Source: Cynocephalus volans
Taxonomy: Eukaryota; Chordata; Mammalia; Dermoptera; Cynocephalidae
Assembly: GCF_027409185.1 (NCBI RefSeq)
Contig: NC_084463.1
Coordinates: 46,230,407 to 46,294,406 of the forward strand
Reading direction: 5' to 3'
Length of the DNA: 64,000 nt
The translations under genes and the position numbers were made by a program. Within the stretch, counting starts at the first letter, position 1; every line of letters starts with the position of its first letter. Shown here in pieces: positions 1-50,143 of this stretch. The notes below the pieces were generated by a model. It was not told where the DNA came from, ran no database searches, and saw nothing but the letters and a program-made list of their open reading frames with translations.

Positions 1-715
1 GCGCTCCCGGCCTGGACCTCCCGCGGCCGCGTCTCCCGCCACCCTGCACTTGCACTTACAAGTGCACACGTGCACACTTGCACGCTGGCCCCCTGCCGCC
101 CCCTCTGCTCCCCTGGCCCCGGGACCCCGAGGCCACAGCCTTGCCTTGCCGCCGCCGCGGCCGCTTATCCGGCCTGGCTCCCGGCACCGCCTGCCGGCCG
201 GCCGCTCCCACGACAGCCCTAGCACGAGGCGAGCCCGGCGCGCGCAGGGGGGATGGATGGCGGGACAGCGCTGGGCTCCTACTGAGTAGGGCAGGAGGGC
301 GCCCCGATGTCACCGCCCTGCCGGCGCTGGGCACCTCGCCGCCGTCTGCTTTCGGCCGCCCCGCCCCTCCCCCACTCGCGGCTTCGGGGGACCCTCCCGA
401 GGCACCCCGCGCCTCCCTCCTCTCTCACTCTGACACTGCGCCCCTGCCCTGCCTCTCTGGGGACCCACAGCCCCCTCCCGGGGGCCTTACCTGCTCCGCC
501 GCCGCGCCGCGCCGCTTCCCTCGGAGGCCTCCTGGGTCCGCCGCTGCTGCTGCTGCGCTGCCGCCCCCTCCTCCCAGACATCCGGGCTCCAAGGGGAGGG
601 GGGGTGGAGGCCCACAGTGGGCGGGGCCAGGCAGGTGCAGGACCGGCTGACAGGTGGGGGGTGGGGCTTGGGGGGAATGCCCTGGCGGCGGTAGGGAATA
701 ATGAAACACATTGCT
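1..715 (-). promoter_or_regulatory. CpG island A, unit 1: candidate minus-strand promoter and first exon
   Basis: Very GC- and CpG-rich DNA. Read on the minus strand it has a GC box (GGGCGGGGC at 619-627), an ATG at 581-579, and a CAG/GTAAGG splice-donor consensus with the exon ending at 491 and the intron beginning at 490. An exon from about 600 to 491 would encode a short Arg/Ser/Gly-rich start (MSGRRGRQRSSSS) before splicing. I do not recognise the peptide and no acceptor exon can be assigned. The same signals recur in the other two copies. Promoter activity is inferred from composition and motifs only. Confidence 0.55.
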
Positions 716-718
716 ATG

Positions 719-750
<32 letters not shown>

Positions 751-752
751 TT
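719..752. repeat. (GATT)n microsatellite beside the L1 3' end, unit 1
   Basis: About eight GATT tetramers lie between island A and the T-rich tail of the inverted L1. The same run is at 8718-8751 in unit 2. In the edge copy it is replaced by TTTA-type repeats. Confidence 0.85.
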
Positions 753-759
753 TAGTATT

Positions 760-3176
760 AGTTTTTTATTTTATTTTATTTTGTCGACATACAATGTGGT
801 TGATCATTGCGGCCAATTACAGAAACCTCCCTCCCTCCTCCCTCTCCTTCCTCCCTCCCAACAATGTCCTTTCTGAAAGTTTGCTTGTCCTATCAATTTC
901 AAGGAATTGCAATTGTCGCGTCTTCTTCCCCCCCCCAATTTTTCTTTCTTTGTTTTTTTTTTTTTTCCTGTGTGCATTTATCTATTTATCTTTACCTCCC
1001 ACAAATAAGAGAGAACGTGACATTTCTCTTTCTGGGCCTGACTTGTTTCACTTAATATAATTCTCTCTAGGTCCATCCATGTCGTTGCAAATGGCAGTAT
1101 TCCATTCTTTTTTAAAGCTGAGTAGTGTTCCATTGTGTACATATACCACATTTTCCATATCCACTCAACTGATGATGGACATCTGGGCTGGTTCCAACTC
1201 TTGGCTATTGTAAATAGTGCTGCGATGAACACTGGGGAAAAGGTGTACCTTCGACTCCATGATTTCCATTCCTCTGGGTATATTCCCAGCAGTGGGATAG
1301 CTGGGAATGGTAGATCTACGGCAGATCTATCTGCAGTTGTTTGAGGAAACTCCATCCCATTTTCCATGGAGGCTGCACCCTTTTGCAGTCCCACCAACAA
1401 TGTATGAGAGTTCCTTTTCCTCCGCAGCCTCGCCAGCATTTACCGTTCAGAGTCTTTTGGATTTTAGCCATCCTCACTGGGGTGAGATGGTATCTCAGTG
1501 TGCTTTTGATTTGCCTTTCCCGAATGCTGAGTGATGTTGAGCATTTTTTCATATGTCTGCCGGCCATTCGTAGATCTTCCTTAGAGAAATGCCTATTTAG
1601 CTCTTTTGCCCATTTTTTAATCGGGTTGCTTGCTTCTGCCTCGTAAAGTTGTTTGAGTTCCTTGTATGTTCTAAGTATAAATCCTCTGTCAGATGCATAT
1701 TTTGCAAATATTTTCTCCCACTGTGTTGGTTGTCTTTTAACTATGTTAATTCTTTCTTTGGCTGTGCAGAAGCTTTTCAGTTGGATATAATCCCATTTGT
1801 TTATTTTTCCTTTGGTTGCCCGTGCTTTGGGGGTCATGTTCATGAAGTCTGTGTCCAGTCCTACTTCCTGAAGCGTTTCTCCTATGTTTTCTTTAAGAGG
1901 TTTTATTGTTTCGGGGTGTATAATTAATTCTTCAATCCATTTTGAGTTGCCTTTAGTGTATGGTGAAAGGTATGGGTCTAGTTTCATTCTCCTGCATATC
2001 GATATCCAGTTCTCCCAGCACCATTTCCTGAAGAGGCGGTCTCTTCCCCAGTGTACAGGCTTGGTGCCTTTGTCAAAGATCAGACGGCCGTAGGTGTGTG
2101 GGTTGATTTCTGGATTCTCCATTCTATTCCACTGAGCAGTGTGTCTGTTTTTATGCCAGTACCATACTGTACTGTTTTGCTTATGATAGCTTTGTAGGAG
2201 AGTTTAAAGTCAGGTAGTGTTACGCCTCCAGCTTTACTTTTTTGGCTCAGCGTTGCTGTGGCTATGCGTGGCCTTTTGTTATTCCATATCAGCGTCTGGA
2301 TAGTTCTTTCCATTTCTGAGAAAAATGTCACTGGAATTTTGAGGGGGACTGCATTGAATTTGTATATCACTTTGGGTAGTATGGACATTTTCACTATGTT
2401 GATGCTTCCAATCCAAGAGCATGGGATATCTTTCCATCGTCTTGTCTCCTCTCCACTTTCTCTCAGCAGTGGTTTGTAGTTCTCATTATAGAGATTTTTC
2501 ACATCCTTGGTTAACTCGCTTCCTAAGTACCTTATGTTTTTGGTGGCTACTGTCAATGGGCAAGCTTTCTTGATTTCTCTTTCTGCATGTCCACTAATGG
2601 AGAATAGAAATGCTACCGGTTTTTGTGTGTTGATTTTGTATCCTGCTACTTTGCTGAAATCCTTTATCAACTCCAAGAGTTTTTTTGTAGAGCCTTCAGA
2701 CTGTTCGACATATAGGATCATGTCATCTGCAAACAGGGACAGTTTGACTTCATCTTTTCCAATCTGGATGCCCTTTATTTCCTTCTCTTCTCTGATTGCT
2801 CTGGCTAGTACCTCCAACACTATATTGAATAGGAGTGGTGAGGGTGGGCATCCTTGTCTAGTTCCTGTTCTTAAAGGAACAGCTTTCAGCTTTTCCCCAT
2901 TCAGGATGATACTGGCAGTGGGTTTATCATATACGGCTTTAATTACGTTGAGATAGTTGCCATCTATGCCTAACTTATAGAAGGCCTTTGTCATGAATGA
3001 CTGTTGAATTTTATCAAGTGCTCTTTCAGCAACTATAGAGATGACCGCATGGTCCTTGTGTTTGATTTCATTAATATGGTGTATCACATTTATTGATTTG
3101 CATATGTTGAACCAACCTTGCATCCCTGGGATGAGTCCCACGTGATCGAGGTGAAGAATTTTACGTGTGTGTTGCA

Positions 3177-3180
<4 letters not shown>
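760..3180 (-). mobile_element. L1, 5'-truncated, minus strand (unit 1)
   Basis: The 3' end lies left, with a T-rich tail and a pyrimidine-rich 3' UTR. ORF2 reads leftward from about 3180. It starts within the reverse transcriptase domain (PGMQGWFN and FADDMILY motifs) and continues through the C-terminal Cys-rich region ([17 protein letters not shown]). The frame is broken into pieces near 3177-2080, 2122-1316 and 1439-978, so the copy is dead but relatively young. It is truncated at the (CT)n run. Confidence 0.92.

Positions 3181-3212
<32 letters not shown>
3181..3212. repeat. (CT)n microsatellite, unit 1
   Basis: A pure CT run at the truncated 5' edge of the inverted L1. It is shorter in unit 2 (11181-11208). 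Confidence 0.95.
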
Positions 3213-3216
<4 letters not shown>

Positions 3217-3412
3217 CCTGCCTTTCTCACAGTGTGATACACTGTGTCGTTGAAGTCACCACCAAACAAGTTCCTCACCAGACGTGTTACCTGGACTTTG
3301 GGCTTCCCAACATTTGAAACTGTAAGCCATAAAGACTGTTTCTTTATAAATCACCCAGTTTTAGGTAATTCTGTTCTAAGCAACAGAAATGGACAAAGAC
3401 ACATGCTACAGT
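3213..3412 (+). mobile_element. MaLR-type LTR 3' part (MST/MLT1-like), unit 1
   Basis: Ends with the usual MaLR LTR tail: 'gaaactgtaagcc', 'ctttataaatcacccag', 'taggtaattctgtt', 'gcaacagaaatgg'. Only the terminal part is present. The copy in unit 2 is at about 11209-11403. This relic is old, but it is carried nearly unchanged in both units. Confidence 0.65.
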
Positions 3413-4965
3413 AATCAAAACCACAAGGTAGTAGACTAAAAACATTCACATCAACCAGTGAAACAAACTGGAGCCCCAAAATAAAACTACATATTTACAG
3501 TCAAATGATTTTTCAATAAAGGTACCAAGAACGCATAACGAGCAAATGACAGTTTCTTCAATAACCGGTGTTGGCAAAACCGTGTATACACACTCAGAAA
3601 AATGAAGTTGAACCCTTCTCTTATCTTACACCACCTACAAAAATCGGCTCAATATGGATTAAAGACGGAAATGGAACACCTGAAACTGTAAAATTGCTAG
3701 AAGAAAACAAATGGGAAAAGCTCCACAACATTGGCCTGGGCAATGATTTTTTGCAGATAGCCCCAAAAGCAAGGCGACAAAATCAAGCACAGACGAAAAT
3801 GGGATTGCATCAAATTAAAAAGCTTCCGCACAGGAAAAGAACAAGTAGGAGAGCGAAGACACGATGACTGGAATGAGAGAAAATATTGGAAAACCGTACA
3901 CCTGATTATGAATAAGTATCCAAAACTACATACAAAATTCAAACAACTCAATAGCAAGACAACAACCCGATTTAAAAAACGGGCAGAGTAACTGAACATA
4001 CGTTTCTCAGAATAAGACCTCCACGTGGCCAACAGGCTGATGAGAAAATGCTCAACCTCCCTAATCATCAGGGAAATACAAATTAAAATCACTAGGACAC
4101 ATAATTACTTCATACCCATTGGAATGGCTATTATCAAAAAGACAAAAGATAACTAGCACTGGCAAGGACGTGGAGAAAAGGCTACCCTTGTACACTGCTG
4201 GTAGGAACGTACAACCATTACAGAAAACAGCATGGAGGTTTCTCAAAAATCTGTAAATAGAAGTACCGTATGACCCAGCAATCCACTTCAGGGAATATCC
4301 CCCAAAGAACTGAAATCAATAGGTTGAAGAGATATCTGTACTCCCATGTGCACTGAGGCATTATCCATAAGAGTCAAGATATAGAATCAACCTAAGTGTT
4401 TATTAACAGACGAACAGATAAAGAAAACGTGGTCTAAGTACACAATGAAATACTATTCGGCCTTAGAAAAGAACAAAACTCTGTCATTTTCCAACAACTG
4501 GGATGCAACTAGAAGACATTACGCTGAGTGACACATGCCAGGCACAGAAAGACATGCTGCATGATTTCACTTGAATGTGGAAACTGGAAAGGTCAGACTC
4601 ATGGAACTAGAGACCAGAATGATGGTTAGCAGAGCCTGGGAGCTGCGGGCGGGGGGGATGGAGGAACAAGGGACGAAGGGAAGTTTGACCAATGGGTACA
4701 AAGTTTCACTCTGGAGAAATAAGGTCTGGTGATCTATGACACAGCAAGGTGACTCTAGTTAATAATAATGTATATTTCAGAATTACCAAAAGAGTGGATT
4801 TTCAGTGCTCTTACCACAGGGGGGGAAGTATGTGAGGTCACGAGTGTGTTACTTGCCTAACTTGCTCACTGCACAATGTACACATGTATGCAATTATCAC
4901 ATGGTGCCCCATAAACATATGCAGTTGCGAGCTGTCAATAAAAAGTAAAAATTCAAGTCCAATAA
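3413..4965 (+). mobile_element. L1 ORF2 C-terminus and 3' UTR, plus strand (unit 1)
   Basis: Degenerate ORF2 C-terminal sequence reads rightward (for example 'gaaactgtaaaattgctagaag' and 'ccaaaagcaaggcgac'), then the 'gaatactattcggcc' stretch and an L1 3' UTR that ends in AATAAAAAG near 4955-4965. It lies head to head with the L1 at 760-3180. Stops and shifts are frequent. Confidence 0.85.
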
Positions 4966-4984
4966 AAAGAAACACAGTGCAGCG

Positions 4985-6045
4985 CTGGCATAAAGTGTAC
5001 ATCAGAGGAACAGAATTGACTGGCCTAGAAGCAAGCTCATGCAGCTATGACAACTGGATTCTCACAAGTGCTTTGTGACCACAACAAATGGTGCTGAGAC
5101 AACTGAATAGCCACATGGAAAGAAATGAAATCGAGCCCTTTTCTAACCCCATACCCAAAAGTGAACACCACACGTGTCACAGAGCTAACTGTAAGAACTC
5201 AAACTACAACACTCGAGAAACACAGGAACAAACCTTTGTGATACCGGATTTGGTGGTGGTCTCTTAGGTAAGATGCCGAAAACACAAGAACCCATATAAA
5301 GAAAGAGTAAACTGGATATCATGCAACGTAAAACTGCTGTGCTTTACAGGACACCACTGAGAAAAAGAAAAGACATCAGGCTGCACAGGAAAATACATTT
5401 TCAATTCACAGATTAAGAACAAGACTATAGAAAGAGCTCCTAAACGACAGTAGGCAGAATTTTTTAAAAAATGGTCAGAGGAAGAGTCGGCCCGTTAGCT
5501 CTGTTGGTTAGAGGGTGGTGCTCTCATACCAAGAGCAAGGGTTAGGATCCCCACACAGGCCAGCCGCCAGTAACAAACAAACCACAAACCTGCTCAGATC
5601 ATTCAAATGAGCATTTCTCTAAGTGACAGATAGGAAAGGCCAATAAGCACCGAAGAAGATATTCATCGTCACCAGCAAGGAAATGGCTATCAATACCACA
5701 GTGAGATAATAGGGGGCACACATTACAAGGCCTATAAATCAAAAAGACAGTCAAGACAAGGTATTGACAAGGCCATAGAGATAGCACAACCCTCATATAT
5801 TGAGGGAGAGACTGGAAAATGCTACAGACTGCCAGGAAACCAGGTCGGTAGTTTTTCAAAACGTGAAATGTAAACTTACTACGTGGCCCAGCAATCCTAC
5901 CGCTGGGGACCTACGAACGAAAACTGAAAATCTGTCCACACAAAAGTTTATATATGAACGCTCCGATCAGCCTCACTTACACTAGTCAAAGAGTCAAAAC
6001 CACACAGAACGCCAAGGAACAATACTGAAACCGGCAAGAGAGGGG
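4985..6045 (+). mobile_element. older L1 ORF2 fragment, plus strand, split by a SINE (unit 1)
   Basis: Covers nearly the same ORF2 region as the preceding fragment ('caaatggtgctgagacaactg', 'cccagcaatcctaccgctgggg') but is more decayed, so it is a separate and older insertion. A tRNA-type SINE splits it at 5489-5575. Its right end (from about 5850) is related to the L1 scrap at 7440-7620, which precedes the other island. Confidence 0.75.
5489..5575 (+). mobile_element. tRNA-Ile-like SINE, unit 1
   Basis: Monomer with a tRNA-like A box ('ttagctctgttggttag') and B box ('agggttaggatcc') and a 'ccagccgcc' end. It sits inside an L1 fragment and is shared by both units. Confidence 0.8.
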
Positions 6046-6046
6046 C

Positions 6047-6120
6047 GCACACACACACACACACACAAACACACACTCACTCTCACACGCGCAAACACAC
6101 ACACTTACACACACACTCAC
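6047..6120. repeat. (CA)n microsatellite before island B, unit 1
   Basis: Interrupted CA repeats. The copy in unit 2 is at 14038-14110. A second CA tract in the same relative place before island A (7623-7690) supports homology of the two halves. Confidence 0.95.
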
Positions 6121-6489
6121 ATAAAGTCTTAATACAGATTTCAGTAAATTCTTCAACAGAAAACTCCCAGTCCAGGAGAGAAAGAGACGTTCTAGCCAAA
6201 CCAAAAATTTAACAACAACAAAAACAACAACAAAGCCTTTCAGACAAGAGCACTGTATGGACAAGAGTATCCTTCAAACAGGGAGAGAGACAATCCTCTC
6301 CCAGACAGACGAAGGCCGAGAGGATCCCCCACAGCAGACCGCTCTCCCAAAGCGCTGCACAGGGCTCTTCCATCTCAACGATGACGCTCACATGCCCCAG
6401 CACCACGTCTGCAGGGACGAAAGTCAGCAGTCATGGAAGGAGAAAAACAAAGAACACACTCAACCTGCAAGGAAGACGACAAAACCGCT
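6121..6489. other. linker between (CA)n and island B
   Basis: About 370 bp of satellite-specific sequence. It is distantly similar to the linker before island A ('ccagtccaggagagaa' against 'acagtccaggaaagaa', 'gtatccttcaaaca' against 'gatccttcaaaca'). A plus frame from 6257 runs 340 codons into island B (345 codons in unit 2), but it crosses the (GGAC)n tract and has no recognisable domain, so I do not call a gene. Confidence 0.6.
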
Positions 6490-7262
6490 CCCGCCATGCC
6501 CTGCTGGCCTTGTCCCCACTGCCCTCGCAATCGCAGCGGCGGCGATGGCTCACCAGGCCCGGGAACGGAGGACACGGCCCCGTGACCAGGAGGCCACAGC
6601 ACAGCTGCACCTGCTACTCCGTTCTGGCCCCCACACCGCCCCCCCGCCGGCTGCTCCCGCAGCAGCCCTGGGACAAGGCCACCGGCGCGCTGGGGCCGTT
6701 GGACGGACGGTCGGACGGTCGGTCGGTTGGACGGGCAGACGGACGGACGGACGGACGGACGGACGGACGGACGGCGGAGCAGCGCTGGGCTCCTGCGGAG
6801 GGGAGGAGGGCGCCCCAGCCTCCTGTCTCTGCCAGCGCCGGGCACCCCGCCCGCCGTCTGCATCCCTCCCCGCTGGCCTCTGCCCCCACTCCCGAAATCA
6901 GGACTCGGGGGACCCTCCTAAGACACCCCGCGGCGCGACGACGCTACTCCCCTGCCTCGCTCGGGAGCCACAGCCCCCTCACGTGGGCCCTACCTGCTCC
7001 GCCGCGCCGCGCCGCTCCTCTCGCCGGTCTCCTCCGTCGTCCACCGCTGCCGCTGCCGCCGCTGCGTCGTCCAGCGCTCCGGTGCACACGGGGACCGAGC
7101 AGGCTCTGGTGCGCCCGCCGGCCCGGCCGCGTCTGGGAGACGTGCGCGATCCCGGCCTCTCCAGGCCGCCTCAGGGGGAGGACTCGACACCCCAGACTGG
7201 GCGGGGTCGGGACAAGGGTGGGGGGAGGTGGAAGTGGCGGGAACACAGGGGTGAATGCCCGC
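6490..7262 (-). promoter_or_regulatory. CpG island B, unit 1
   Basis: A second CpG-rich block, recognisably homologous to island A. Shared landmarks are 'cagcgctgggctcct', 'gggggaccctcc', 'gccacagccccctc', 'ctgctccgccgc' and a 'gggcgggg' box at 7199-7206. On the minus strand the donor site is kept as CAG/GTAGGG (exon edge 6994, intron from 6993). The base matching the island A ATG reads as ACG here. A and B look like two old copies of one promoter module that diverged before the present 8-kb unit was amplified. Confidence 0.5.
6701..6775. repeat. (GGAC/GGTC)n tetranucleotide tract, unit 1
   Basis: A run of GGAC and GGTC tetramers inside CpG island B. The corresponding tract in unit 2 is longer and differently interrupted, so this is the most variable CpG-rich position within the unit. 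Confidence 0.9.
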
Positions 7263-7439
7263 AGGGGGGTGGGGACTAATTAGATACATCCTTGTGGACC
7301 CCAGCCTGGGCTCCACAACCATGCCCTCTCCTATTCTCTACACACTTGCCATCAAGGATCCCCCGAATCCATTGGCCAGAACACCCCACAGAAGCAAATA
7401 CTTAGGCCTAAACAAAATCAACTCCCGACTGGCACTTTG

Positions 7440-7620
7440 ACAAGCTGGGAAATGTCAGGTGACTACCGTGACCCAGCAATTGTACTGCTGGAGACACACG
7501 CAGGAGAACTGAAAACATATGTCCCCACAGAAGTTTGTACATGAACGCTCAGATCAGTGTCACCTACACTAGCCAAAGAGTCAAACCACACAAATCACAA
7601 AGACAGAACACTGAAACGCA
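7440..7620 (+). mobile_element. L1-derived scrap before island A, unit 1
   Basis: 'cccagcaattgtactgctgg', 'gaactgaaaac' and 'tcagtgtcacctacactagcc' match, with divergence, the right end of the older L1 fragment at 5850-6030. It is part of the module (L1 scrap, CA run, linker, island) that occurs twice per unit. The copy in unit 2 is at about 15449-15630. Confidence 0.65.
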
Positions 7621-7622
7621 TG

Positions 7623-7641
7623 GTGACAGAAACACACACAT

Positions 7642-7688
<47 letters not shown>

Positions 7689-7690
7689 CA
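7623..7690. repeat. (CA)n microsatellite before island A, unit 1
   Basis: Long CA run; the copy in unit 2 (15641-15706) is shorter and more interrupted. Confidence 0.95.
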
Positions 7691-7989
7691 CTCAAAAGGG
7701 TCCAAATACAGGTTTCAGCAAATATATGAACAGAAACCTCACAGTCCAGGAAAGAATGGGATGTTGCAAAGTTTAGAAGCAGCAGAAGGAAAGACTTCCC
7801 TATCAAGAGGACTGTACCCAAACAAGGATCCTTCAAACACGGACAGCAAAAGTCCTTTCCTAGGCTAACAAAAGCTGAGAGAATTCACAAATGTCTACGG
7901 AGAACTCTTCCAAGTCCAAGAAGATACTAACAGGGAACCGCAAAAGGAAGGATAAAAACGCAGTGACAACACAGAAGACCATCGACCCA
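7691..7989. other. linker between (CA)n and island A
   Basis: About 300 bp homologous to 6121-6489. It contains a plus frame from 7891 with a Lys-rich start (MSTENSSKSKK) that runs into the island. It is repeated in unit 2 from 15904. No family is recognised. Confidence 0.55.
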
Positions 7990-8715
7990 CTCCTGAGAAA
8001 AGCGCTCCCGGTCTGGACCTCCCGCGGCCGCGTCTCCCGCCACCCTGCACTTGCACTTACAAGTGCACACGTGCACACTTGCACGCTGGCCCCCTGCCGC
8101 CCCCTCTGCTCCCCTGGCCCCGGGACCCCGAGGCCACAGCCTTGCCTTGCCGCCGCCGCGGCCGCTTATCCGGCCTGGCTCCCGGCACCGCCTGCCGGCC
8201 GGCCGCTCCCACGACAGCCCTAGCACGAGGCGAGCCCGGCGCGCAGGGGGGACGGACGGCGGGACAGCGCTGGGCTCCTCCTGAGTAGGGCAGGAGGGCG
8301 CCCCGATGTCACCGCCCTGCCGGCGCTGGGCACCTCGCCGCCGTCTGCTTTCGGCCGCCCCGCCCCTCCCCCACTCGCGGCTTCGGGGGACCCTCCCGAG
8401 GCACCCCGCGCCTCCCTCCTCTCTCACTCTGACACTGCGCCCCTGCCCTGCCTCTCTGGGGACCCACAGCCCCCTCCCGGGGGCCTTACCTGCTCCGCCG
8501 CCGCGCCGCGCCGCTTCCCTCGGAGGCCTCCTGGGTCCGCCGCTGCTGCTGCTGCGCTGCCGCCCCCTCCTCCCAGACATCCGGGCTCCAAGGGGAGGGG
8601 GGGTGGAGGCCCACAGTGGGCGGGGCCAGGCAGGTGCAGGACCGGCTGACAGGTGGGGGGTGGGGCTTGGGGGGAATGCCCTGGCGGCGGTAGGGAATAA
8701 TGAAACACATTGCTA
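7990..8715 (-). promoter_or_regulatory. CpG island A, unit 2: candidate minus-strand promoter and first exon
   Basis: This is the second copy of island A, with GC box at 8618-8626, ATG at 8580-8578 and the GTAAGG donor at 8489-8484. The minus frame from that ATG stays open for 217 codons to 7927. In unit 1 the same frame is broken by a TAG after about 100 codons, caused by one base change near 279. Open frames are common in GC-rich DNA, so this is weak evidence for protein. Confidence 0.55.
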
Positions 8716-8717
8716 TG

Positions 8718-8749
<32 letters not shown>

Positions 8750-8758
8750 TTTAGTATT

Positions 8759-11175
8759 AGTTTTTTATTTTATTTTATTTTGTCGACATACAATGTGGTT
8801 GATCATTGCGGCCAATTACAGAAACCTCCCTCCCTCCTCCCTCTCCTTCCTCCCTCCCAACAATGTCCTTTCTGAAAGTTTGCTTGTCCTATCAATTTCA
8901 AGGAATTGCAATTGTCGCGTCTTCTTCCCCCCCCCAATTTTTCTTTCTTTGTTTTTTTTTTTTTTCCTGTGTGCATTTATCTATTTATCTTTACCTCCCA
9001 CAAATAAGAGAGAACGTGACATTTCTCTTTCTGGGCCTGACTTGTTTCACTTAATATAATTCTCTCTAGGTCCATCCATGTCGTTGCAAATGGCAGTATT
9101 CCATTCTTTTTTAAAGCTGAGTAGTGTTCCATTGTGTACATATACCACATTTTCCATATCCACTCAACTGATGATGGACATCTGGGCTGGTTCCAACTCT
9201 TGGCTATTGTAAATAGTGCTGCGATGAACACTGGGGAAAAGGTGTACCTTCGACTCCATGATTTCCATTCCTCTGGGTATATTCCCAGCAGTGGGATAGC
9301 TGGGAATGGTAGATCTACGGCAGATCTATCTGCAGTTGTTTGAGGAAACTCCATCCCATTTTCCATGGAGGCTGCACCCTTTTGCAGTCCCACCAACAAT
9401 GTATGAGAGTTCCTTTTCCTCCGCAGCCTCGCCAGCATTTACCGTTCAGAGTCTTTTGGATTTTAGCCATCCTCACTGGGGTGAGATGGTATCTCAGTGT
9501 GCTTTTGATTTGCCTTTCCCGAATGCTGAGTGATGTTGAGCATTTTTTCATATGTCTGCCGGCCATTCGTAGATCTTCCTTAGAGAAATGCCTATTTAGC
9601 TCTTTTGCCCATTTTTTAATCGGGTTGCTTGCTTCTGCCTCGTAAAGTTGTTTGAGTTCCTTGTATGTTCTAAGTATAAATCCTCTGTCAGATGCATATT
9701 TTGCAAATATTTTCTCCCACTGTGTTGGTTGTCTTTTAACTATGTTAATTCTTTCTTTGGCTGTGCAGAAGCTTTTCAGTTGGATATAATCCCATTTGTT
9801 TATTTTTCCTTTGGTTGCCCGTGCTTTGGGGGTCATGTTCATGAAGTCTGTGTCCAGTCCTACTTCCTGAAGCGTTTCTCCTATGTTTTCTTTAAGAGGT
9901 TTTATTGTTTCGGGGTGTATAATTAATTCTTCAATCCATTTTGAGTTGCCTTTAGTGTATGGTGAAAGGTATGGGTCTAGTTTCATTCTCCTGCATATCG
10001 ATATCCAGTTCTCCCAGCACCATTTCCTGAAGAGGCGGTCTCTTCCCCAGTGTACAGGCTTGGTGCCTTTGTCAAAGATCAGACGGCCGTAGGTGTGTGG
10101 GTTGATTTCTGGATTCTCCATTCTATTCCACTGAGCAGTGTGTCTGTTTTTATGCCAGTACCATACTGTACTGTTTTGCTTATGATAGCTTTGTAGGAGA
10201 GTTTAAAGTCAGGTAGTGTTACGCCTCCAGCTTTACTTTTTTGGCTCAGCGTTGCTGTGGCTATGCGTGGCCTTTTGTTATTCCATATCAGCGTCTGGAT
10301 AGTTCTTTCCATTTCTGAGAAAAATGTCACTGGAATTTTGAGGGGGACTGCATTGAATTTGTATATCACTTTGGGTAGTATGGACATTTTCACTATGTTG
10401 ATGCTTCCAATCCAAGAGCATGGGATATCTTTCCATCGTCTTGTCTCCTCTCCACTTTCTCTCAGCAGTGGTTTGTAGTTCTCATTATAGAGATTTTTCA
10501 CATCCTTGGTTAACTCGCTTCCTAAGTACCTTATGTTTTTGGTGGCTACTGTCAATGGGCAAGCTTTCTTGATTTCTCTTTCTGCATGTCCACTAATGGA
10601 GAATAGAAATGCTACCGGTTTTTTTGTGTTGATTTTGTATCCTGCTACTTTGCTGAAATCCTTTATCAACTCCAAGAGTTTTTTTGTAGAGCCTTCAGAC
10701 TGTTCGACATATAGGATCATGTCATCTGCAAACAGGGACAGTTTGACTTCATCTTTTCCAATCTGGATGCCCTTTATTTCCTTCTCTTCTCTGATTGCTC
10801 TGGCTAGTACCTCCAACACTATATTGAATAGGAGTGGTGAGGGTGGGCATCCTTGTCTAGTTCCTGTTCTTAAAGGAACAGCTTTCAGCTTTTCCCCATT
10901 CAGGATGATACTGGCAGTGGGTTTATCATATACGGCTTTAAGTACGTTGAGATAGTTGCCATCTATACCTAACTTATAGAAGGCCTTTGTCATGAATGAC
11001 TGTTGAATTTTATCAAGTGCTCTTTCAGCAACTATAGAGATGACCGCATGGTCCTTGTGTTTGATTTCATTAATATGGTGTATCACATTTATTGATTTGC
11101 ATATGTTGAACCAACCTTGCATCCCTGGGATGAGTCCCACGTGATCGAGGTGAAGAATTTTACGTGTGTGTTGCA

Positions 11176-11180
<5 letters not shown>
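8759..11180 (-). mobile_element. L1, 5'-truncated, minus strand (unit 2)
   Basis: The same L1 insertion as at 760-3180, carried by the second unit with only a few substitutions. The reverse transcriptase piece (11269-10079 on minus) again holds FADDMILY, and its open frame runs through the (CT)n run into the flank. Confidence 0.92.
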
Positions 11181-11208
<28 letters not shown>

Positions 11209-11403
11209 CTGCCTTTCTCACAGTGTGATACACTGTGTCGTTGAAGTCACCACCAAACAAGTTCCTCACCAGACGTGTTACCTGGACTTTGGGCTTCCCA
11301 ACATTTGAAACTGTAAGCCATAAAGACTGTTTCTTTATAAATCACCCAGTTTTAGGTAATTCTGTTCTAAGCAACAGAAATGGACAAAGACACATGCTAC
11401 AGT
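11209..11403 (+). mobile_element. MaLR-type LTR 3' part, unit 2
   Basis: Second copy of the LTR fragment at 3213-3412, same orientation and breakpoints. Confidence 0.65.
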
Positions 11404-12956
11404 AATCAAAACCACAAGGTAGTAGACTAAAAACATTCACATCAACCAGTGAAACAAACTGGAGCCCCAAAATAAAACTACATATTTACAGTCAAATGAT
11501 TTTTCAATAAAGGTACCAAGAACGCATAACGAGCAAATGACAGTTTCTTCAATAACCGGTGTTGGCAAAACCGTGTATACACACTCAGAAAAATGAAGTT
11601 GAACCCTTCTCTTATCTTACACCACCTACAAAAATCGGCTCAATATGGATTAAAGATGGAAATGGAACACCTGAAACTGTAAAATTGCTAGAAGAAAACA
11701 AATGGGAAAAGCTCCACAACATTGGTCTGGGCAATGATTTTTTGCAGATAGCCCCAAAAGCAAGGCGACAAAATCAAGCACAGACGAAAATGGGATTGCA
11801 TCAAATTAAAAAGCTTCCGCACAGGAAAAGAACAAGTAGGAGAGCGAAGACACGATGACTGGAATGAGAGAAAATATTGGAAAACCGTACACCTGATTAT
11901 GAATAAGTATCCAAAACTACATACAAAATTCAAACAACTCAATAGCAAGACAACAACCCGATTTAAAAAATGGGCAGAGTAACTGAACATACGTTTCTCA
12001 GAATAAGACCTCCACGTGGCCAACAGGCTGATGAGAAAATGCTCAACCTCCCTAATCATCAGGGAAATACAAATTAAAATCACTAGGACACATAATTACT
12101 TCATACCCATTGGAATGGCTGTTATCAAAAAGACAAAAGATAACTAGCACTGGCAAGGACGTGGAGAAAAGGCTACCCTTGTACACTGCTGGTAGGAACG
12201 TACAACCATTACAGAAAACAGCATGGAGGTTTCTCAAAAATCTGTAAATAGAAGTACCGTATGATCCAGCAATCCCACTTCAGGGAATATCCCCCAAAGA
12301 ACTGAAATCAATAGGTTGAAGAGATATCTGTACTCCCATGTGCACTGAGGCATTATCCATAAGAGTCAAGATATAGAATCAACCTAAGTGTTTATTAACA
12401 GACGAACAGATAAAGAAAACGTGGTCTAAGTACACAATGAAATACTATTCGGCCTTAGAAAAGAACAAAACTCTGTCATTTTCCAACAACTGGGATGCAA
12501 CTAGAAGACATTACGCTGAGTGACACATGCCAGGCACAGAAAGACATGCTGCATGATTTCACTTGAATGTGGAAACTGGAAAGGTCAGACTCATGGAACT
12601 AGAGACCAGAATGATGGTTAGCAGAGCCTGGGAGCTGCGGGCGGGGGGGATGGAGGAACAAGGACGAAGGGAAGTTTGACCAATGGGTACAAAGTTTCAC
12701 TCTGGAGAAATAAGGTCTGGTGATCTATGACACAGCAAGGTGACTCTAGTTAATAATAATGTATATTTCAGAATTACCAAAAGAGTGGATTTTCAGTGCT
12801 CTTACCACAGGGGGGGAAGTATGTGAGGTCACGAGTGTGTTACTTGCCTAACTTGCTCACTGCACAATGTACACATGTATGCAATTATCACATGGTGCCC
12901 CATAAACATATGCAGTTGCGAGCTGTCAATAAAAAGTAAAAATTCAAGTCCAATAA
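11404..12956 (+). mobile_element. L1 ORF2 C-terminus and 3' UTR, plus strand (unit 2)
   Basis: Second copy of the 3413-4965 fragment with a few substitutions. Confidence 0.85.
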
Positions 12957-12975
12957 AAAGAAACACAGTGCAGCG

Positions 12976-14037
12976 CTGGCATAAAGTGTACATCAGAGGA
13001 ACAGAATTGACTGGCCTAGAAGCAAGCTCATGCAGCTATGACAACTGGATTCTCACAAGTGCTTTGTGACCACAACAAATGGTGCTGAGACAACTGAATA
13101 GCCACATGGAAAGAAATGAAATCGAGCCCTTTTCTAACCCCATACCCAAAAGTGAACACCACACGTGTCACAGAGCTAACTGTAAGAACTCAAACTACAA
13201 CACTCGAGAAACACAGGAACAAACCTTTGTGATACCGGATTTGGTGGTGGTCTCTTAGGTAAGATGCCGAAAACACAAGAACCCATATAAAGAAAGAGTA
13301 AACTGGATATCATGCAACGTAAAACTGCTGTGCTTTACAGGACACCACTGAGAAAAAGAAAAGACATCAGGCTGCACAGGAAAAATACATTTTCAATTCA
13401 CAGATTAAGAACAAGACTATAGAAAGAGCTCCTAAACGACAGTAGGCAGAATTTTTTAAAAAATGGTCAGAGGAAGAGTCGGCCCGTTAGCTCTGTTGGT
13501 TAGAGGGTGGTGCTCTCATACCAAGAGCAAGGGTTAGGATCCCCACACAGGCCAGCCGCCAGTAACAAACAAACCACAAACCTGCTCAGATCATTCAAAT
13601 GAGCATTTCTCTAAGTGACAGATAGGAAAGGCCAATAAGCACCGAAGAAGATATTCATCGTCACCAGCAAGGAAATGGCTATCAATACCACAGTGAGATA
13701 ATAGGGGGCACACATTACAAGGCCTATAAATCAAAAAGACAGTCAAGACAAGGTATTGACAAGGCTATAGAGATAGCACAACCCTCATATATTGAGGGAG
13801 AGACTGGAAAATGCTACAGACTGCCAGGAAACCAGGTCGGTAGTTTTTCAAAACGTGAAATGTAAACTTACTACGTGGCCCAGCAATCCTACCGCTGGGG
13901 ACCTACGAACGAAAACTGAAAATCTGTCCACACAAAAGTTTATATACGAACGCTCCGATCAGCCTCACTTACACTAGTCAAAGAGTCAAAACCACACAGA
14001 ACGCCAAGGAACAATACTGAAACCGGCAAGAGAGGGG
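12976..14037 (+). mobile_element. older L1 ORF2 fragment, plus strand, split by a SINE (unit 2)
   Basis: Second copy of 4985-6045; its SINE is at 13481-13567. Confidence 0.75.
13481..13567 (+). mobile_element. tRNA-Ile-like SINE, unit 2
   Basis: Second copy of the SINE at 5489-5575, same position in the unit. Confidence 0.8.
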
Positions 14038-14483
14038 CGCACACACACACACACACACACAAACACACACTCACTCTCACACGCGCAAACACACACACTT
14101 ACACACACACTCACATAAAGTCTTAATACAGATTTCAGTAAATTCTTCAACAGAAAACTCCCAGTCCAGGAGAGAAAGAGACGTTCTAGCCAAACCAAAA
14201 ATTTAACAACAACAAAAACAACAACAAAGCCTTTCAGACAAGAGCACTGTATGGACAAGAGTATCCTTCAAACAGGGAGAGAGACAATCCTCTCCCAGAC
14301 AGACGAAGGCCGAGAGGATCCCCCACAGCAGACCGCTCTCCCAAAGCGCTGCACAGGGCTCTTCCATCTCAACGATGACGCTCACATGCCCCAGCACCAC
14401 GTCTGCAGGGACGAAAGTCAGCAGTCATGGAAGGAGAAAAACAAAGAACACACTCAACCTGCAAGGAAGACGACAAAACCGCT

Positions 14484-15271
14484 CCCGCCATGCCCTGCTG
14501 GCCTTGTCCCCACTGCCCTCGCAATCGCAGCGGCGGCGATGGCTCACCAGGCCCGGGAACGGAGGACACGGCCCCGTGACCAGGAGGCCACAGCACAGCT
14601 GCACCTGCTACTCCGTTCTGGCCGCCACACCGCCCCCCGCCGGCTGCTCCCGCAGCAGCCCTGGGACAAGGCCACCGGCGCGCTGGGGCCCTTGGACGGA
14701 CGGTCGGACGGTCGGTCGGTCGGTCGGTTGGACGGACGGACAGACGGACGGACAGACGGACGGACGGACGGACGGACGGACGGCGGAGCAGCGCTGGGCT
14801 CCTGCGGAGGGGAGGAGGGCGCCCCAGCCTCCTGTCTCTGCCAGCGCCGGGCACCCCGCCCGCCGTCTGCATCCCTCCCCGCTGGCCTCTGCCCCCACTC
14901 CCGAAATCAGGACTCGGGGGACCCTCCTAAGACACCCCGCGGCGCGACGACGCTACTCCCCTGCCTCGCTCGGGAGCCACAGCCCCCTCACGTGGGCCCT
15001 ACCTGCTCCGCCGCGCCGCGCCGCTCCTCTCGCCGGTCTCTTCCGTCGTCCACCGCTGCCGCTGCCGCCGCTGCGTCGTCCAGCGCTCCGGTGCACACGG
15101 GGACCGAGCAGGCTCTGGTGCGCCCGCCGGCCCGGCCGCGTCTGGGAGACGTGCGCGATCCCGGCCTCTCCAGGCCGCCTCAGGGGGAGGACTCGACACC
15201 CCAGACTGGGCGGGGTCGGGACAAGGGTGGGGGGAGGTGGAAGTGGCGGGAACACAGGGGTGAATGCCCGC
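14484..15271 (-). promoter_or_regulatory. CpG island B, unit 2
   Basis: This is the second copy of island B, with the same minus-strand donor (CCCTAC on plus at 14997-15002) and 'gggcgggg' box. It differs from unit 1 mainly in the length and phase of the (GGAC)n tract. Confidence 0.5.
14694..14784. repeat. (GGAC/GGTC)n tetranucleotide tract, unit 2
   Basis: Longer allele of the island B tetranucleotide tract, with extra GGTC and GGACAGAC interruptions compared with unit 1. Confidence 0.9.
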
Positions 15272-15665
15272 AGGGGGGTGGGGACTAATTAGATACATCC
15301 TTGTGGACCCCAGCCTGGGCTCCACAACCATGCCCTCTCCTATTCTCTATACACTTGCCATCAAGGATCCCCCGAATCCATTGGCCAGAACACCCCACAG
15401 AAGCAAATACTTAGGCCTAAACAAAATCAACTCCCGACTGGCACTTTGACAAGCTGGGAAATGTCAGGTGACTACCGTGACCCAGCAATTGTACTGCTGG
15501 AGACACATGCAGGAGAACTGAAAACAGATGTCCCCACAGAAGTTTGTACATGAACGCTCAGATCAGTGTCACCTACACTAGCCAAAGAGTCAAACCACAC
15601 AAATCACAAAGGAAGAACACTGAAACGCATGGAGACAGAAACACACACATGCACAGACACACACA

Positions 15666-15703
<38 letters not shown>

Positions 15704-16002
15704 CTCAAAAGGGTCCAAATACAGGTTTCAGCAAATATATGAACAGAAACCTCACAGTCCAGGAAAGAATGGGATGTTGCAAAGTTTAGAAGCAGCAGAA
15801 GGAAAGACTTCCCTATCAAGAGGACTGTACCCAAACAAGGATCCTTCAAACACGGACAGCAAAAGTCCTTTCCTAGGCTAACAAAAGCTGAGAGAATTCA
15901 CAAATGTCTACGGAGAACTCTTCCAAGTCCAAGAAGATACTAACAGGGAACCGCAAAAGGAAGGATAAAAACGCAGTGACAACACAGAAGACCATCGACC
16001 CA

Positions 16003-16710
16003 CTCCTGAGAAAAGCGCTCCCGGCCTGGACCTCCCGCGGCCGCGTCTCCCGCCACCCTGCACTTGCACTTACAAGTGCACACGTGCACACTTGCACGCT
16101 GGCCCCCTGCCGCCCCCTCTGCTCCCCTGGCCCCGGGACCCCGAGGCCACAGCCTTGCCTTGCCGCCGCCGCGGCCGCTTATCCGGCCTGGCTCCCGGCA
16201 CCGCCTGCCGGCCGGCCGCTCCCACGACAGCCCTAGCACGAGGCGAGCCCGGCGCGCAGGGGGGACGGATGGCGGGACAGCGCTGGGCTCCTCCTGAGTA
16301 GGGCAGGAGGGCGCCCCGATGTCACCGCCCTGCCGGAGCTGGGCACCTCGCCGCCGTCTGCTTTCGGCCGCCCCGCCCCTCCCCCACTCGCGGCTTCGGG
16401 GGACCCTCCCGAGGCACCCCGCGCCTCCCTCCTCTCTCACTCCGACACTGCGCCCCTGCCCTGCCTCTTTGGGGACCCACAGCCCCCTCCCGGGGGCCTT
16501 ACCTGCTCCGCCGCCGCGCCGCGCCGCTTCCCTCACAGGCCTCCTGGGTCCGCCGCTGCTGCTGCGCTGCCGCCCCCTCCTCCCAGACATCCGGGCTCCA
16601 AGGGGAGGGGGGGTGGAGGCCCACAGTGGGCGGGGCCAGGCAGGTTCCCTGGCAGCTGCCTTGGGGGGCGTTGGGCGGAAATGCCCTCGGGGCAGTAGGG
16701 ACCAATGTGA
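16003..16710 (-). promoter_or_regulatory. CpG island A, unit 3 (edge copy)
   Basis: This is the third copy of island A. The GC box (16628-16636), the ATG at 16590-16588 and the donor at 16502-16497 are kept, although this copy is otherwise the most diverged. One CTG triplet is missing from the CTG run, which removes a Ser codon and leaves a 216-codon minus frame. It abuts non-satellite DNA, so a transcript starting here would read leftward into the array. Confidence 0.5.
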
Positions 16711-16830
16711 CCTATTGCTCTGGATATGTTTATTTATTTAGTTTGTTTTATTTATTTATTTTTTAATTTTATTTTGTCTTCATGCAACGTTTTTGGTTAT
16801 TGTGGCCAATTCCCGAATCCTCAAAGCCCC
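16015..16830. repeat. truncated macrosatellite unit 3, array edge
   Basis: Island A repeats a third time. Similarity is high to about 16645, then drops while still alignable: a different GC-rich stretch, then a degenerate version of the L1 3' end ('ttattttgtc', 'gtggccaattcc'). After about 16830 nothing matches the unit. A diverged terminal copy is typical at the edge of a tandem array, where homogenisation is weak. Confidence 0.85.
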
Positions 16831-17060
16831 TAAATAAATTAAGTAGGAGAGAATATCATGAACAACTTTATGTCAACAAATTAGATCAATTAAATGTACA
16901 AATTATATAAATATTGAAATTGAATCAAAAAGAAATGGAAATTTGGATATACCAACAACAGGTAAAATCATTAAATTAGTAATTCAAAATCTTTCCATAA
17001 AGAAAAGCCAGGGCTCAAATACGTTTACTTGGGAAATGCATCAAACATTTAAAAAGAAGA
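16830..17060 (+). mobile_element. old L1 ORF2 fragment just outside the array
   Basis: Resembles the L1 ORF2 segment between endonuclease and reverse transcriptase ('aacaactttatgtcaacaaat', 'aagccagggctcaaatacg', 'catcaaacatttaaaaag'), heavily mutated. The array edge therefore abuts L1 DNA. Confidence 0.55.
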
Positions 17061-17299
17061 AATTTTAAAAAGAATATTTGTGTTACAACATAGCGCAAAT
17101 AAACTGTATACATACCCAAGTGTTGTCGTGTGAACTGAACAAGACCGCATTTCGCTTATTGTACTCGAGAAATCTCAAAATCATTAATGAGAGTTCTGTA
17201 TCCTAAAGTACGATTCCATACATACTGCAAAGTCCTACTCCACTGCAAAACAAAAACAGCCTGCCTAAAAAAAAAAAAAAAATATTGCATATCTTAATG
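17061..17299. other. AT-rich stretch, no gene
   Basis: I see no gene or clear repeat here beyond an A run near 17268-17282. Confidence 0.5.
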
Positions 17300-17880
17300 T
17301 CAGGAAATATAAATATCTAAGTTTACCTTCTCAAAGCCAAAAAATGTGAACAAAATTTATTGTGTAGACTTCTAGTTATATAAAACATGTTAATAACACT
17401 GACATAGCTGCAAAAGAAAATATTTTTTTAAAAAAGATAAACATACAAAAGTCCCATAAATATCCATTCATTTTGAAAATTAAAAACACATGTCTAAGTA
17501 GCTCATGGGTCAAATAAGTAATTATAATATAGGTTAAAAATTGACTAGATTTAAATGACCATTCAAATACTGCATGCGAAATCTTGTGAAATGCAATTAA
17601 ATACTTATAGTTTGATGTTTATATTTAAAAAATATTTTATGTTAATTTATGAGCTATGTTTAAATCAGGAGCCTATGAAAAATAAAACAAAGAATTAACC
17701 CAAAGAAGGTAGATGCAAAGGCATAATAAAAATAAGAGCAGAACTTAATAAAAGAGAAAATGTAGATAATACAGAGAAGTACACAAAAGAGACAAGTCTT
17801 TTTGGAGATTGAAGAAGAAAATAAGAGAGAAGGCATGAATATAATAGAAACTAGAAAGGAGACATAAATATAAATTCAGT
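17300..17880 (+). mobile_element. old L1 ORF2 fragment
   Basis: Degenerate match to the L1 ORF2 region after the endonuclease ('ataagagcagaacttaat', 'acaagtctttttggagattg'). It encodes sequence upstream of that in the fragment at 16830-17060 but lies downstream of it, so the two are either separate insertions or rearranged. Confidence 0.5.
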
Positions 17881-33760: not shown

Positions 33761-36478
33761 AAATTTTCCTTCTATATCTAATTTGATGAGAAATTTTATC
33801 ATTAAGGGATGTTGAATTTTATTAAATGCTTTTTCTGCATCTACCAAAATGATCGTTGGGTTTTTTTTTCTTTTATTCTCTTGATGTGATGTATTACATT
33901 TATTGATTTGTGTATGTTAAACCATATGTTTGATGTGCTGTTGGGTTCAGTTTGCCAGTAATACAAGTTAAGGATTTTTGCATCTGTGTTTTTTAGGATA
34001 TTGGCCTAAAGTTTTCTTTTTTAGTTGTGTCCTTGCCTGATTTTGGCATTAGGGTAATGCTGGCTTCATAGTATGAGATTGGAAGAATTCCATCCACTTC
34101 AATTTTTTGAAATAGTTTAAGAAGTATTAATTGTTTAAAATTCGGGTAGAATTCAGCAGTAAAGCCGTCTGGTCCTGGGCTTTTCTGTGTTGGAAGAATT
34201 TTTATTACTTACCGTGTATCATTATTTGTTATTGGTCTATTTAGGTTTTCTCTCTCTTCTTGGTTCAGTCATGGTAGGGCATACGTGTCCAGGAATTTAT
34301 CCATTTCCTCTAGGTCTTTATATTTATTGGTGTATAGCTGTTCATGATTGTCTCTGAGCCTCCTTTGTATCAGGGTGCTATCTATTGTAATGGCTCCATT
34401 TGCATTTCTGATTTTATTTGAGTTTTTTCTCTTTTTCTTTTCTTGGTTACTCTAGCTAATGTTTTGTTGATTTCGTTTATCTTTTCAAAGGACAAACTTT
34501 TTGTATGCTTGACTTTTTGGTATTGTATTTTTAGTCTCAATTTCATTTATTTCTGCTCTGATTTTAGTATTTCTTTTCTTCTACTTACTTTGGGTTTAGT
34601 TTCCTCTTGCCTTTCTAGCTCTTTGAGGTGCATTTATAGGCTGTTTATTTGAAATCTTTCTATTTCTTTTATGTAAGCCTCTTTTTCTATAAACTTTCCT
34701 CTTAATACTGCCTTGGCTATATCCCATAGGTTTTGGTACGCTGTGTTTCTGTCTTCATTAGTTTCAAGAAATTTTTTGATTTCCTTAAATCTCTTCTTTG
34801 ACACATTGGTTGTTCAACAGCACGTTTAATTTCCATGTATTTGTGTAGTTTCACAAGTTTCTGTTATTATTGATATCTAGTTTTATTCTATAATAGTCAG
34901 AAAAAATATTTGATATGATTTTGATTTTTTTGAATTTGTCAGGACTTATCTTGTCACCTAACATATTGTCAATATTCGAGAATGTTCCATGTCCTGATAA
35001 AAAGAATGCATATTCTGCAGCTGTTGGATGAAATACTCTGTATATGCCTATTAGGTCCATCTGGTCTATGGTGCCATTTAAATCCAATGTTTCCTTATTG
35101 ATTTTCTGTCTTAATTATCTGTCCAGTGCTGACAGTGGGGTGTGAAAGTCCCCAACTATTAATGTGCTGGTGTCTAACTCTCCCTTTAGATCTGATTATG
35201 TTTCCTCTCTATATTTGGGTGCTCCAGGGTTGGGTGCTTATATATTTATAATTGTTATATCCTTTGGCTGTATTGATCATTTTGTTATATCGTGCCTTTC
35301 TTTGTCCCTTAGTACAGATTTTGATTTAAAATTTGTTTTATCTGATACTGGTATAGGGGATAAAACTTTTTGTTTTACATTTACATGGAATATCTTTTTC
35401 TATCCCTTCACTTTTAGTCTACATGTGTCTTTGTAGGTTCCTTGTAGGCAGCATACGGATGGGTCATGTTTTTTCACCCATACAGCCAGTCTATGTATTT
35501 TAATTGGAGCATTTAATCCATTTACATTCAAGCTTATTACTGATATGTGAGGTCTTACTCCTGTCATTTTGTTGGTTGTTTTCTGATTATTTTGTGTATC
35601 CTTTGTTCCCTTTTTCCTCTTTTAATGTTCATCCTTGCAATTTGATGTCTTTCTGTATTGATTTGGTTCCTTTCTCTTTCTAATTTGTGTATCTACTCTA
35701 CCAGTAAGTTTTCTATTTCAGGTATTTTAATGATGGCTGTTATTGTTCTTTATCTTCTTGATGTAGAATTCCTCTAAGCATTTCTTGTAAGGCCAGTCTG
35801 CTAGTGATAAATTCTCTTACATTTTACTTGTCTGAAAAAGACTTTATTTCCTCTTCATTTCTGAAAGATAGCTTTGCTGGGTATATTCTTTGCTGGGAGT
35901 TATTTTCTCTTTTAGTACTTTGAATATATCATCCCATTCTTTCCTAGCCTGTAGGTTTTCTACTGAGAAGTCTGCTGGGGATTCCCTTAGAAGTCACTTG
36001 ATGCTTTTCTCTTGCTGTTTTTAGAATACTCTCTTTGTCTCTAACTTTGGATAGTCTGATTATATGTGTCTTAGAAATCACCTATTTGGGTTGAATCTAT
36101 TTGGGGAGGTTTTAACTTCCTGGATTTGGATGTTTGCATCTTTCCCAAGACTAAGGAAGTTTTCAGCTATTATTTCTTTAAATAGGTTTTCAACATCTTT
36201 TTGTTTTGTTTTGTTTTCTTCTCCTTCTGTAATGCCCATGATTTGAATATCTATCTCCTTAATACTACCCCATAGATCTTGTAAGGTTTGTTCTTTTTTT
36301 ATTCTCTTTTCTTTTTGTCTTGTCTTCCTGTGTTATTACAAAACTGCTCTCCTCAAGATCAGAAATTATTCCTTCTGCTTGATCTAGTCTGTTGTTGAGA
36401 CTTAAATGATATCTATCTCTTTGTCAAATTTCTCATTCAGATCATGAATTGTTGTTCCGATTTTGTTGAAATGTTTGT

Positions 36479-36858
36479 CTGTATTCTGTTGTATCTCAGT
36501 GAGTTTCCTTAAGATAATTAATTTGAATTCCTTTTTTGGCAAGTTGGTAAATTGCTGCTTCTTTGGGATCAGTCTGTATTCTCTTGTATCTCAGTGAGTT
36601 TCCTTAAGATTATTAATCTGAATTCCTTTTTTGGCAAGTTGGTAAATTGCTGCTTCTTTGGGATCAGTCTGTATTCTCTTGTATCTCAGTGAGTTTCCTT
36701 AAGATTATTAATTTGAATTCCTTTTTTGGCAAGTTGGTAAATTGCTGACTCTTCGGGATCAGTCTGTATTCTCTTGTATCTCAGTGAGTTTCCTTAAGAT
36801 AATTAATTTAAATTCCTTTTTTGGCAAGTTGGTAATTGCTGATTCTTTGGGATCAGTT
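36479..36858. repeat. 95-bp tandem repeat, four copies, in the L1 ORF1 region
   Basis: The phrase 'gagtttccttaagat' recurs at 36501, 36596, 36691 and 36786, exactly 95 bp apart. The unit is not a multiple of three, so it shifts the ORF1 frame. Confidence 0.92.
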
Positions 36859-37619: not shown

Positions 37620-37925
37620 GCAGAGCTGCTGAGCTGCTTCTGAGGAAGTGTGCAAGGCCATTAGGCAGGGCTGCAAAGTGGAGGGACCCATCCAGCTGCT
37701 TCTGGGTTGTGGTTGTCCTGATAGATAGGCCTGCAGTGAAGTGGCCCATCCAGCTTCTGTTGGGTGGTGGGTGGCACTGGTAGACAGGCCTGCAATGAAG
37801 TGACCCATCCAGCAGCTTCTGAGCGGTGGGAAAGGCCACTAGGCAGGCATGCAGTGAAGTGACCCATCCAACTGCTACTGAGTGGTGGGTGGGGCTAATA
37901 AGCAGGTCTGTAGTGAAGTGGCTAG
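37620..37925. repeat. 59-bp tandem repeat in the L1 5' UTR
   Basis: 'cccatcc' recurs at 37687, 37745, 37804 and 37863, with flanking 'gctgcttctg' and 'gcagtgaagtg' words, about five degenerate copies. Confidence 0.8.
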
Positions 37926-43130: not shown

Positions 43131-43194
43131 TTTGGCCATGTCTTTTAGAACTGACAGATACCCTGTAGAGAAAATCTGCCCAAAGTCCAAGTTT

Positions 43195-44142: not shown

Positions 44143-44147
44143 CTCAC

Positions 44148-44157
<10 letters not shown>

Positions 44158-50140: not shown

Positions 50141-50143
50141 GAG

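Follow-up and report, generated by a model that had tools for sequence, protein, structure and literature searches.

A candidate autosomal macrosatellite with two CpG islands per unit, mostly associated with amplified RALGDS-like genes, in Cynocephalus volans

A 64,000-nucleotide stretch of the Cynocephalus volans genome (the window; C4:46,230,407-46,294,406, where C4 is contig NC_084463.1 of assembly GCF_027409185.1) begins with near-identical, CpG-island-bearing units of about 8 kb, which raises the question of what kind of tandem repeat this is and how it came to be there. A preliminary description, made from the letters of the window, had taken it for the edge of a macrosatellite with CpG-island promoters. 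In the single assembly examined (2.81 Gb in 130 contigs), the array looks like part of a new, unusually abundant macrosatellite with about 100 near-identical, mostly head-to-tail copies. We consider it probable (about 0.72) that it is an autosomal macrosatellite in which tandem CpG-island promoter modules and transposon fragments have been homogenised, which has a germline activity resembling that of the macrosatellites D4Z4 and ZAV, and which has spread together with RALGDS-like amplicons.

Self-alignment of the window paired positions 1-8828 with 8002-16822 at 98.5% identity; as far as the sharp edge at 8635/16645, the two differ by 38 mismatches (0.44%) and 39 gap columns over 8620 aligned bases. 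The following units were delimited:

1..8001, plus strand: complete unit, number 19 of the 20 in the array at C4:46.09-46.25 Mb, from alignment
8002..16014, plus strand: complete unit, number 20 of 20, from alignment; used as the reference unit
16015..16822, plus strand: partial unit at the right edge, near-identical to the others through 16645 and about 27% diverged over 16646-16822
16646..16822, plus strand: diverged remnant of the same site with the same L1 3' tail junction, abutting the flank at 16822/16823

Two near-identical units and a partial third had been reported, and this count stands (1-8001, 8002-16014, 16015-16822); the partial unit, however, is the right edge of the array, and at the left the window merely cuts through it. 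The L1-tail junction is retained in the diverged right piece, as judged from a local alignment score of 106 compared with 39 for the best of 200 shuffles.

The idea that these units are the right edge of a longer array was borne out by the adjoining sequence: 20 complete units of about 8 kb, head to tail and 98.9-100% identical to unit 20, occupy C4:46,086,379-46,246,420, with diverged partial units at both ends. The left part was read from C4:46,050,001-46,230,000, and 406 bases within unit 18 lie outside the stretches read. The partial unit at the left end has 86-88% identity to unit position ~6726 and 97.9% beyond. Concerted evolution predicts older remnants at both ends and a homogenised interior, and this is what is seen. 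The alignment of the 20 units contains 93 variable columns, 63 of which have variants common to at least two units, and all four gametes are present in 748 of the 1953 pairs of such shared sites. Since four-gamete pairs persist after removal of 24 CpG-linked sites (283 of 741 pairs; 244 of 630 in gap-free columns), recurrent CpG mutation is not the cause. With gaps ignored, neighbouring units are 99.82% identical and distant ones about 99.66%, the overall figure being about 99.7%. The mosaic of shared variants shows that the units exchange sequence, by unequal crossing-over or gene conversion.

Genome-wide, a 31-mer of the unit had 106 matches with up to two mismatches (73 forward, 33 reverse), compared with none for the reversed pattern, so the possibility, considered in the preliminary description, that only the window's own copies exist does not hold. 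Locations are listed for 100 of the 106 matches, and the distribution figures given here refer to those. All 100 lie on C4, C21 and the small unplaced contig C108, and at least seven arrays have five or more listed copies each:

C4: 38.69-38.79 Mb (14), 39.06 Mb (1), 39.15-39.29 Mb (18), 39.30 Mb (1, inverted)
C4: 39.83 Mb (1), 46.09-46.25 Mb (21), 48.83-48.88 Mb (7)
C21: 1.83-1.86 Mb (5), 1.95-1.99 Mb (6), 2.46-2.59 Mb (17)
C108: 9-26 kb (3), 113-157 kb (6)

One stretch on C21 and one on C108 were read and match the unit at about 95-98%. On C108 (129-176 kb and 9-18 kb), some unit copies follow one another at about 9.5 kb and others at 8 kb, which may point to a variant with a longer unit.

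Chromosomal placement, which had been proposed as a check, thus puts the array on C4, with further listed copies on C21 and C108. Xist exon 4 was found on C30 with 127 bits, above the family cut-off, and a weak, sub-threshold match to Xist exon 1 lies 21 kb from it; C4 and C21 are therefore not the X chromosome. This bears on a DXZ4-type X-linked CTCF insulator, which a CpG-rich tandem unit of kilobase scale might bring to mind. Besides the location of Xist exon 4 on C30 and of the 100 listed unit copies elsewhere, a CTCF-like pattern gave seven matches in the window against an expectation of 6.3, with a single match inside the unit, and the core motif of DXZ4 gave none. The DXZ4 reading was rejected on these grounds and has a negligible probability. 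The macrosatellite scale that prompted the initial comparison with D4Z4 and DXZ4 is retained.

The presence of two CpG islands per unit, as first described, was confirmed. Both islands have a GC content of about 0.75 and stand out from a CpG-poor background (CpG observed/expected ratio, o/e, of 0.20 over window 17-64 kb):

8002..8690, minus strand: CpG island A, putative minus-strand promoter and first exon; GC 0.75, CpG o/e 0.71; further copies at 1-690 and 15990-16690
8488..8490, minus strand: splice-donor motif in island A, CAG/GTAAGG; 20 of 20 units
13857..14319, plus strand: spacer preceding island B; 72% identical to 15458-15897
14570..15290, minus strand: CpG island B; GC 0.74, CpG o/e 0.87; about 71% identical to island A across about 310 bp; further copy at 6567-7291
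15001..15003, minus strand: splice-donor motif in island B, CAG/GTAGGG; 20 of 20 units
15458..15897, plus strand: spacer preceding island A, partner of 13857-14319

With islands about 71% and spacers 72% alike, A and B represent an old tandem duplication of one spacer-plus-island module. On the minus strand of both islands a GC box is followed by the donor motif, and both GC boxes are kept in 20 of 20 units. Inside the islands the GC skew switches sign in all five copies tested, a change that was equally large in 0-2 of 500 shuffles. The anatomy expected of the CpG-island promoters postulated at the outset is thus present; promoter activity itself is predicted from sequence.

The remainder of the unit consists largely of debris resembling L1, long terminal repeats (LTRs) and short interspersed nuclear elements (SINEs):

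8691..11180, minus strand: 5'-truncated L1 with a reverse transcriptase domain (Pfam RVT_1, 7.6e-24)
11196..11400, plus strand: short repeat, by sequence match in part also at 43204-43309; presumably MLT1-LTR-like
11401..12940, plus strand: fragment of an older L1, in the opposite orientation to 8691-11180 (65% identity across 1.15 kb)
13481..13573, plus strand: SINE-like fragment with 71-73% similar copies elsewhere in the window, which we take to be of the tRNA-derived type

Pooling 12 partly overlapping alignments with E < 1e-9 (11 L1, one LTR-like; about 4.85 kb), the transposon pieces hold 67 CpG in the unit and 16 in the matching right-flank pieces (o/e 0.34 vs 0.10), which would fit hypomethylation in the germ line, biased gene conversion or a difference in age. 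With its 1.15-kb inverted L1 pair lying inside one putative transcription unit, the repeat might also be a source of transposon-silencing RNA, in that read-through RNA from island B, antisense to the old L1 and then sense to the other L1, might yield PIWI-interacting RNA (piRNA) or hairpin RNA. However, the two arms are just 65% identical, and we judge this explanation very improbable.

At the left edge of the array, the DNA of a minus-strand RALGDS-like relative, whose translated matches contain stops, ends 125 bp short of that edge. The identical junction occurs at C4:39,149,483 and at ~46.084 Mb, that is, at both of the left edges read. The right flank (16830-17830) is present full length, with 91-100% identity, at six loci:

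C4:46.247 Mb, C108:111 kb, C21:1.860 Mb, C4:39.058 Mb, C4:39.830 Mb: right flank with a unit 31-mer 837-925 bp away
C11:73.151 Mb: right flank without a unit 31-mer

The right junctions at C4:46.247 Mb and on C11 were read base by base. On C11 the similarity begins exactly at window position 16823, the preceding 8.8 kb being unrelated AT-rich DNA without the unit, so that 16822/16823 is a real breakpoint. By this evidence, array edge and flank were copied jointly to several places. An assembly artefact, such as false haplotype duplication or repeated contigs, would find some support in the array at C4:39.29 Mb, where 200 N mark the point at which the orientation flips. It is nevertheless highly unlikely, given 20 units distinguishable by mosaic variants, diverged remnants at both ends, the same right flank beside unit copies at several loci, and a right-edge breakpoint confirmed by the flank copy on C11.

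The left flank also contains a plus-strand gene with RasGEF exons, in two copies 18.5 kb apart that are 98.2% identical over 14 kb. The RasGEF domain (Pfam PF00617) was recognised in two open reading frames (ORFs; 5.6e-15 and 2.4e-10), a third remaining below the cut-off, and the best PDB match is RGL2 (4.5e-14). The RasGEF exon, examples of which are L009:4344-5063 and L025:8556-9400, is open (75-aa match without stops) in all of the best 150 of 403 candidates, each of them on C4 or C21. A 36-mer from this exon had 180 matches (79 forward, 101 reverse; control 0), the first 100 of which are listed with locations. Adjacent gene copies are spaced 18.4-18.6 kb on C4, and on C21 also 20.1 and 20.6 kb. 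An amplification with 180 pattern matches at 18.5-20.6 kb spacing is remarkable in its own right. At C4:39.10-39.68 and 46.05-46.54 Mb, macrosatellite arrays are flanked by gene arrays that face opposite ways, and others lie near gene arrays at C4:48.60-48.88, C21:1.65-1.86 and C21:2.46-2.69 Mb. The association with RALGDS-like genes is strong but not universal, applying to most arrays and not to all. The 18.5-kb gene unit that was read contains a truncated copy of the island-B module, and a putative ATG exon at C4:46,068,556 is preceded, at a distance of about 1.6 kb, by the end of an island-B-like copy.

These positions might mean that the islands supply the RALGDS-like family, or its minus-strand relative, with promoter and first exon, and that the array serves the gene arrays as a promoter in many copies. 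In favour of such a link, the minus-strand donors face the minus-strand RALGDS-like fragment at the left edge, with the junction seen at 2 of 2 edges, and the island-B-like copy lies about 1.6 kb upstream of the putative ATG exon. The evidence is positional, however: the left-edge fragment matches mid-protein and guanine nucleotide exchange factor (GEF) parts only and has stops, and the island copy before the ATG is truncated close to its first exon and keeps the orientation that it has in the array, with a donor that would face away from the plus-strand gene. We therefore regard this explanation as unlikely.

An autosomal, homogenised macrosatellite of promoter modules would work as follows. 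The two CpG-island promoters of each unit would read leftwards, on the minus strand, and in an array dozens of CpG islands would form a block that varies in copy number. By analogy with D4Z4 and ZAV, the islands may be active in germ-line cells or in early embryos, with methylation silencing them in the soma, and the unit may have spread by being carried inside recombining RALGDS-like amplicons. Several observations weigh against this account. The GC-skew switch is strand-symmetric and was discarded as evidence of direction, which leaves the donor motifs to indicate the direction of transcription; GC boxes and donors may have been kept through homogenisation rather than selection, and the higher CpG content of the transposon pieces could come from age or biased gene conversion. 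No listed gene match occurs within about 300 kb of the array at C4:38.69 Mb, and the gene arrays at C21 8.28-8.73, 9.28-9.59 and 15.99-16.76 Mb are without a listed unit. Six RALGDS-like peptide pieces tried against the unit revealed no coding homology; with the unit devoid of RALGDS-like homology and the left-edge fragment incomplete and interrupted by stops, the connection between promoter and gene is one of position. Finally, the frame opening at the ATG of island A spans 192-193 aa in 15 of 20 units and 99-119 aa in the other five, so a conserved long protein is not indicated. A Pfam scan of two island ORFs gave no match, and a unit-encoded protein is unsupported in view of this result and the shortened frames. 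The unit is apparently non-coding and promoter-like, and in an Rfam scan of the window no family reached its gathering score.

Much of this would also suit a neutral passenger, that is, a functionless unit whose islands are relics of a gene promoter trapped in RALGDS-like amplicons, its copy number reflecting recombination only. Most arrays lie within RALGDS-like regions, the 18.5-kb gene unit has its own truncated island-B module, and no protein of the unit was found in the Pfam scan of island ORFs or the comparison of frames in 20 units. That all 20 units have kept their GC boxes and donor motifs argues the other way, although homogenisation alone could account for it; we hold the neutral explanation to be a real possibility, but less probable than not. 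At the opposite extreme, the arrays might be promoter blocks that determine, through their copy number and their methylation, how a selfish RALGDS-like amplicon (about 180 copies) spreading between chromosomes is dosed in the germ line. This is quite improbable; if true, dosage control of the RALGDS-like genes would resemble the D4Z4 switch, except that its target in cis would be an adjacent gene array and not a gene inside the unit.

The right flank of the array, within the window, has features of its own. An intact, intronless NANOG retrocopy lies at 45964-47527 on the minus strand, with an ORF of 318 codons (46423-47379), a homeodomain, NANOG as best PDB match and a perfect 18-bp target-site duplication. 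The normal, intron-containing NANOG is at C20:106.62 Mb (exon matches 96.6-100%), from which the retrocopy differs by 8 synonymous and 9 non-synonymous codons of 303. The block 42895-51863, with retrocopy and target-site duplication, is duplicated at C21:2,037,001-2,046,000 (~99%); the copy there is also open and differs from that on C4 in 2 synonymous and 9 non-synonymous codons. An array edge was predicted beside the C21 block and not found, C21:2,066,001-2,076,000 being without a match to the window. Short tandem repeats occur at 36477-36857 (95-bp x4), 37677-37920 (59-bp x4) and 41004-41640 (80-bp x8, GC-rich), and C strongly outweighs G at 43.5-45.0 and 51.5-53.5 kb, where most 1-kb steps have a skew of about -0.3 to -0.44.

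To our knowledge, few macrosatellites have been described outside primates, mouse and cat. Those available for comparison include DXZ4, D4Z4, ZAV, TAF11-like, PRR20 and RS447, the last being USP17. DXZ4/Dxz4 is X-linked, near PLS3, and has a conserved CTCF motif (PMC3491370, PMC8662614); the resemblance lies in a large, CpG-rich tandem array. D4Z4, at human 4q35 and 10q26, has a 3.3-kb unit that encodes DUX4 and is controlled by CpG methylation (PMC3018141, PMC5461771). It likewise consists of tandem kilobase units on two chromosomes, but the unit described here measures about 8 kb, and a Pfam scan of four of its ORFs revealed no homeobox, the L1 reverse transcriptase being the sole match; for these ORFs the initial impression that a DUX homeobox is missing holds, the homeobox found in the window belonging to the NANOG retrocopy outside the array. 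RS447, TAF11-like and PRR20 are likewise homogeneous kilobase-scale tandem arrays (PMC3018141). For TAF11-like and PRR20 an ORF is listed (PMC3018141), whereas in the present case the amplified gene nearby forms a separate unit of about 18.5 kb.

With near-identical multi-kilobase units arranged head to tail and listed copies on two chromosomes and C108, the array shows two properties of the macrosatellite class. As it differs from DXZ4 in linkage and CTCF motif and from D4Z4 in its ORF, it appears to be a new macrosatellite, with an unusual link to gene amplification on a very large scale. No publication on this array was found by title or abstract start, which does not prove that none exists. 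It may provide a natural system for studying how CpG-island arrays homogenise, spread between chromosomes, become silenced and perhaps control a co-amplified gene family.

Closest in build is ZAV, a macrosatellite at human 9q32 beside ZFP37 that is present in 3-31 copies and is expressed in testis and in fetal brain (PMC3018141). Like the present unit, that of ZAV is of kilobase size and combines two CpG islands with pieces of long interspersed nuclear elements and LTRs and no clear ORF (PMC3018141), the LTR label in our unit being an assumption; it also carries microsatellites (PMC3018141). In people carrying SMCHD1 mutations the methylation of ZAV appears to be lower, with wide variation among controls (PMC5461771). 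The two differ, in a comparison by build and not by sequence, in that the array reported here has an 8-kb unit, lies on two chromosomes and is mostly near RALGDS-like arrays. The 18 flank ORFs scanned with Pfam for a zinc-finger domain, as expected of ZFP37, contained none, and the gene found there is RALGDS-like.

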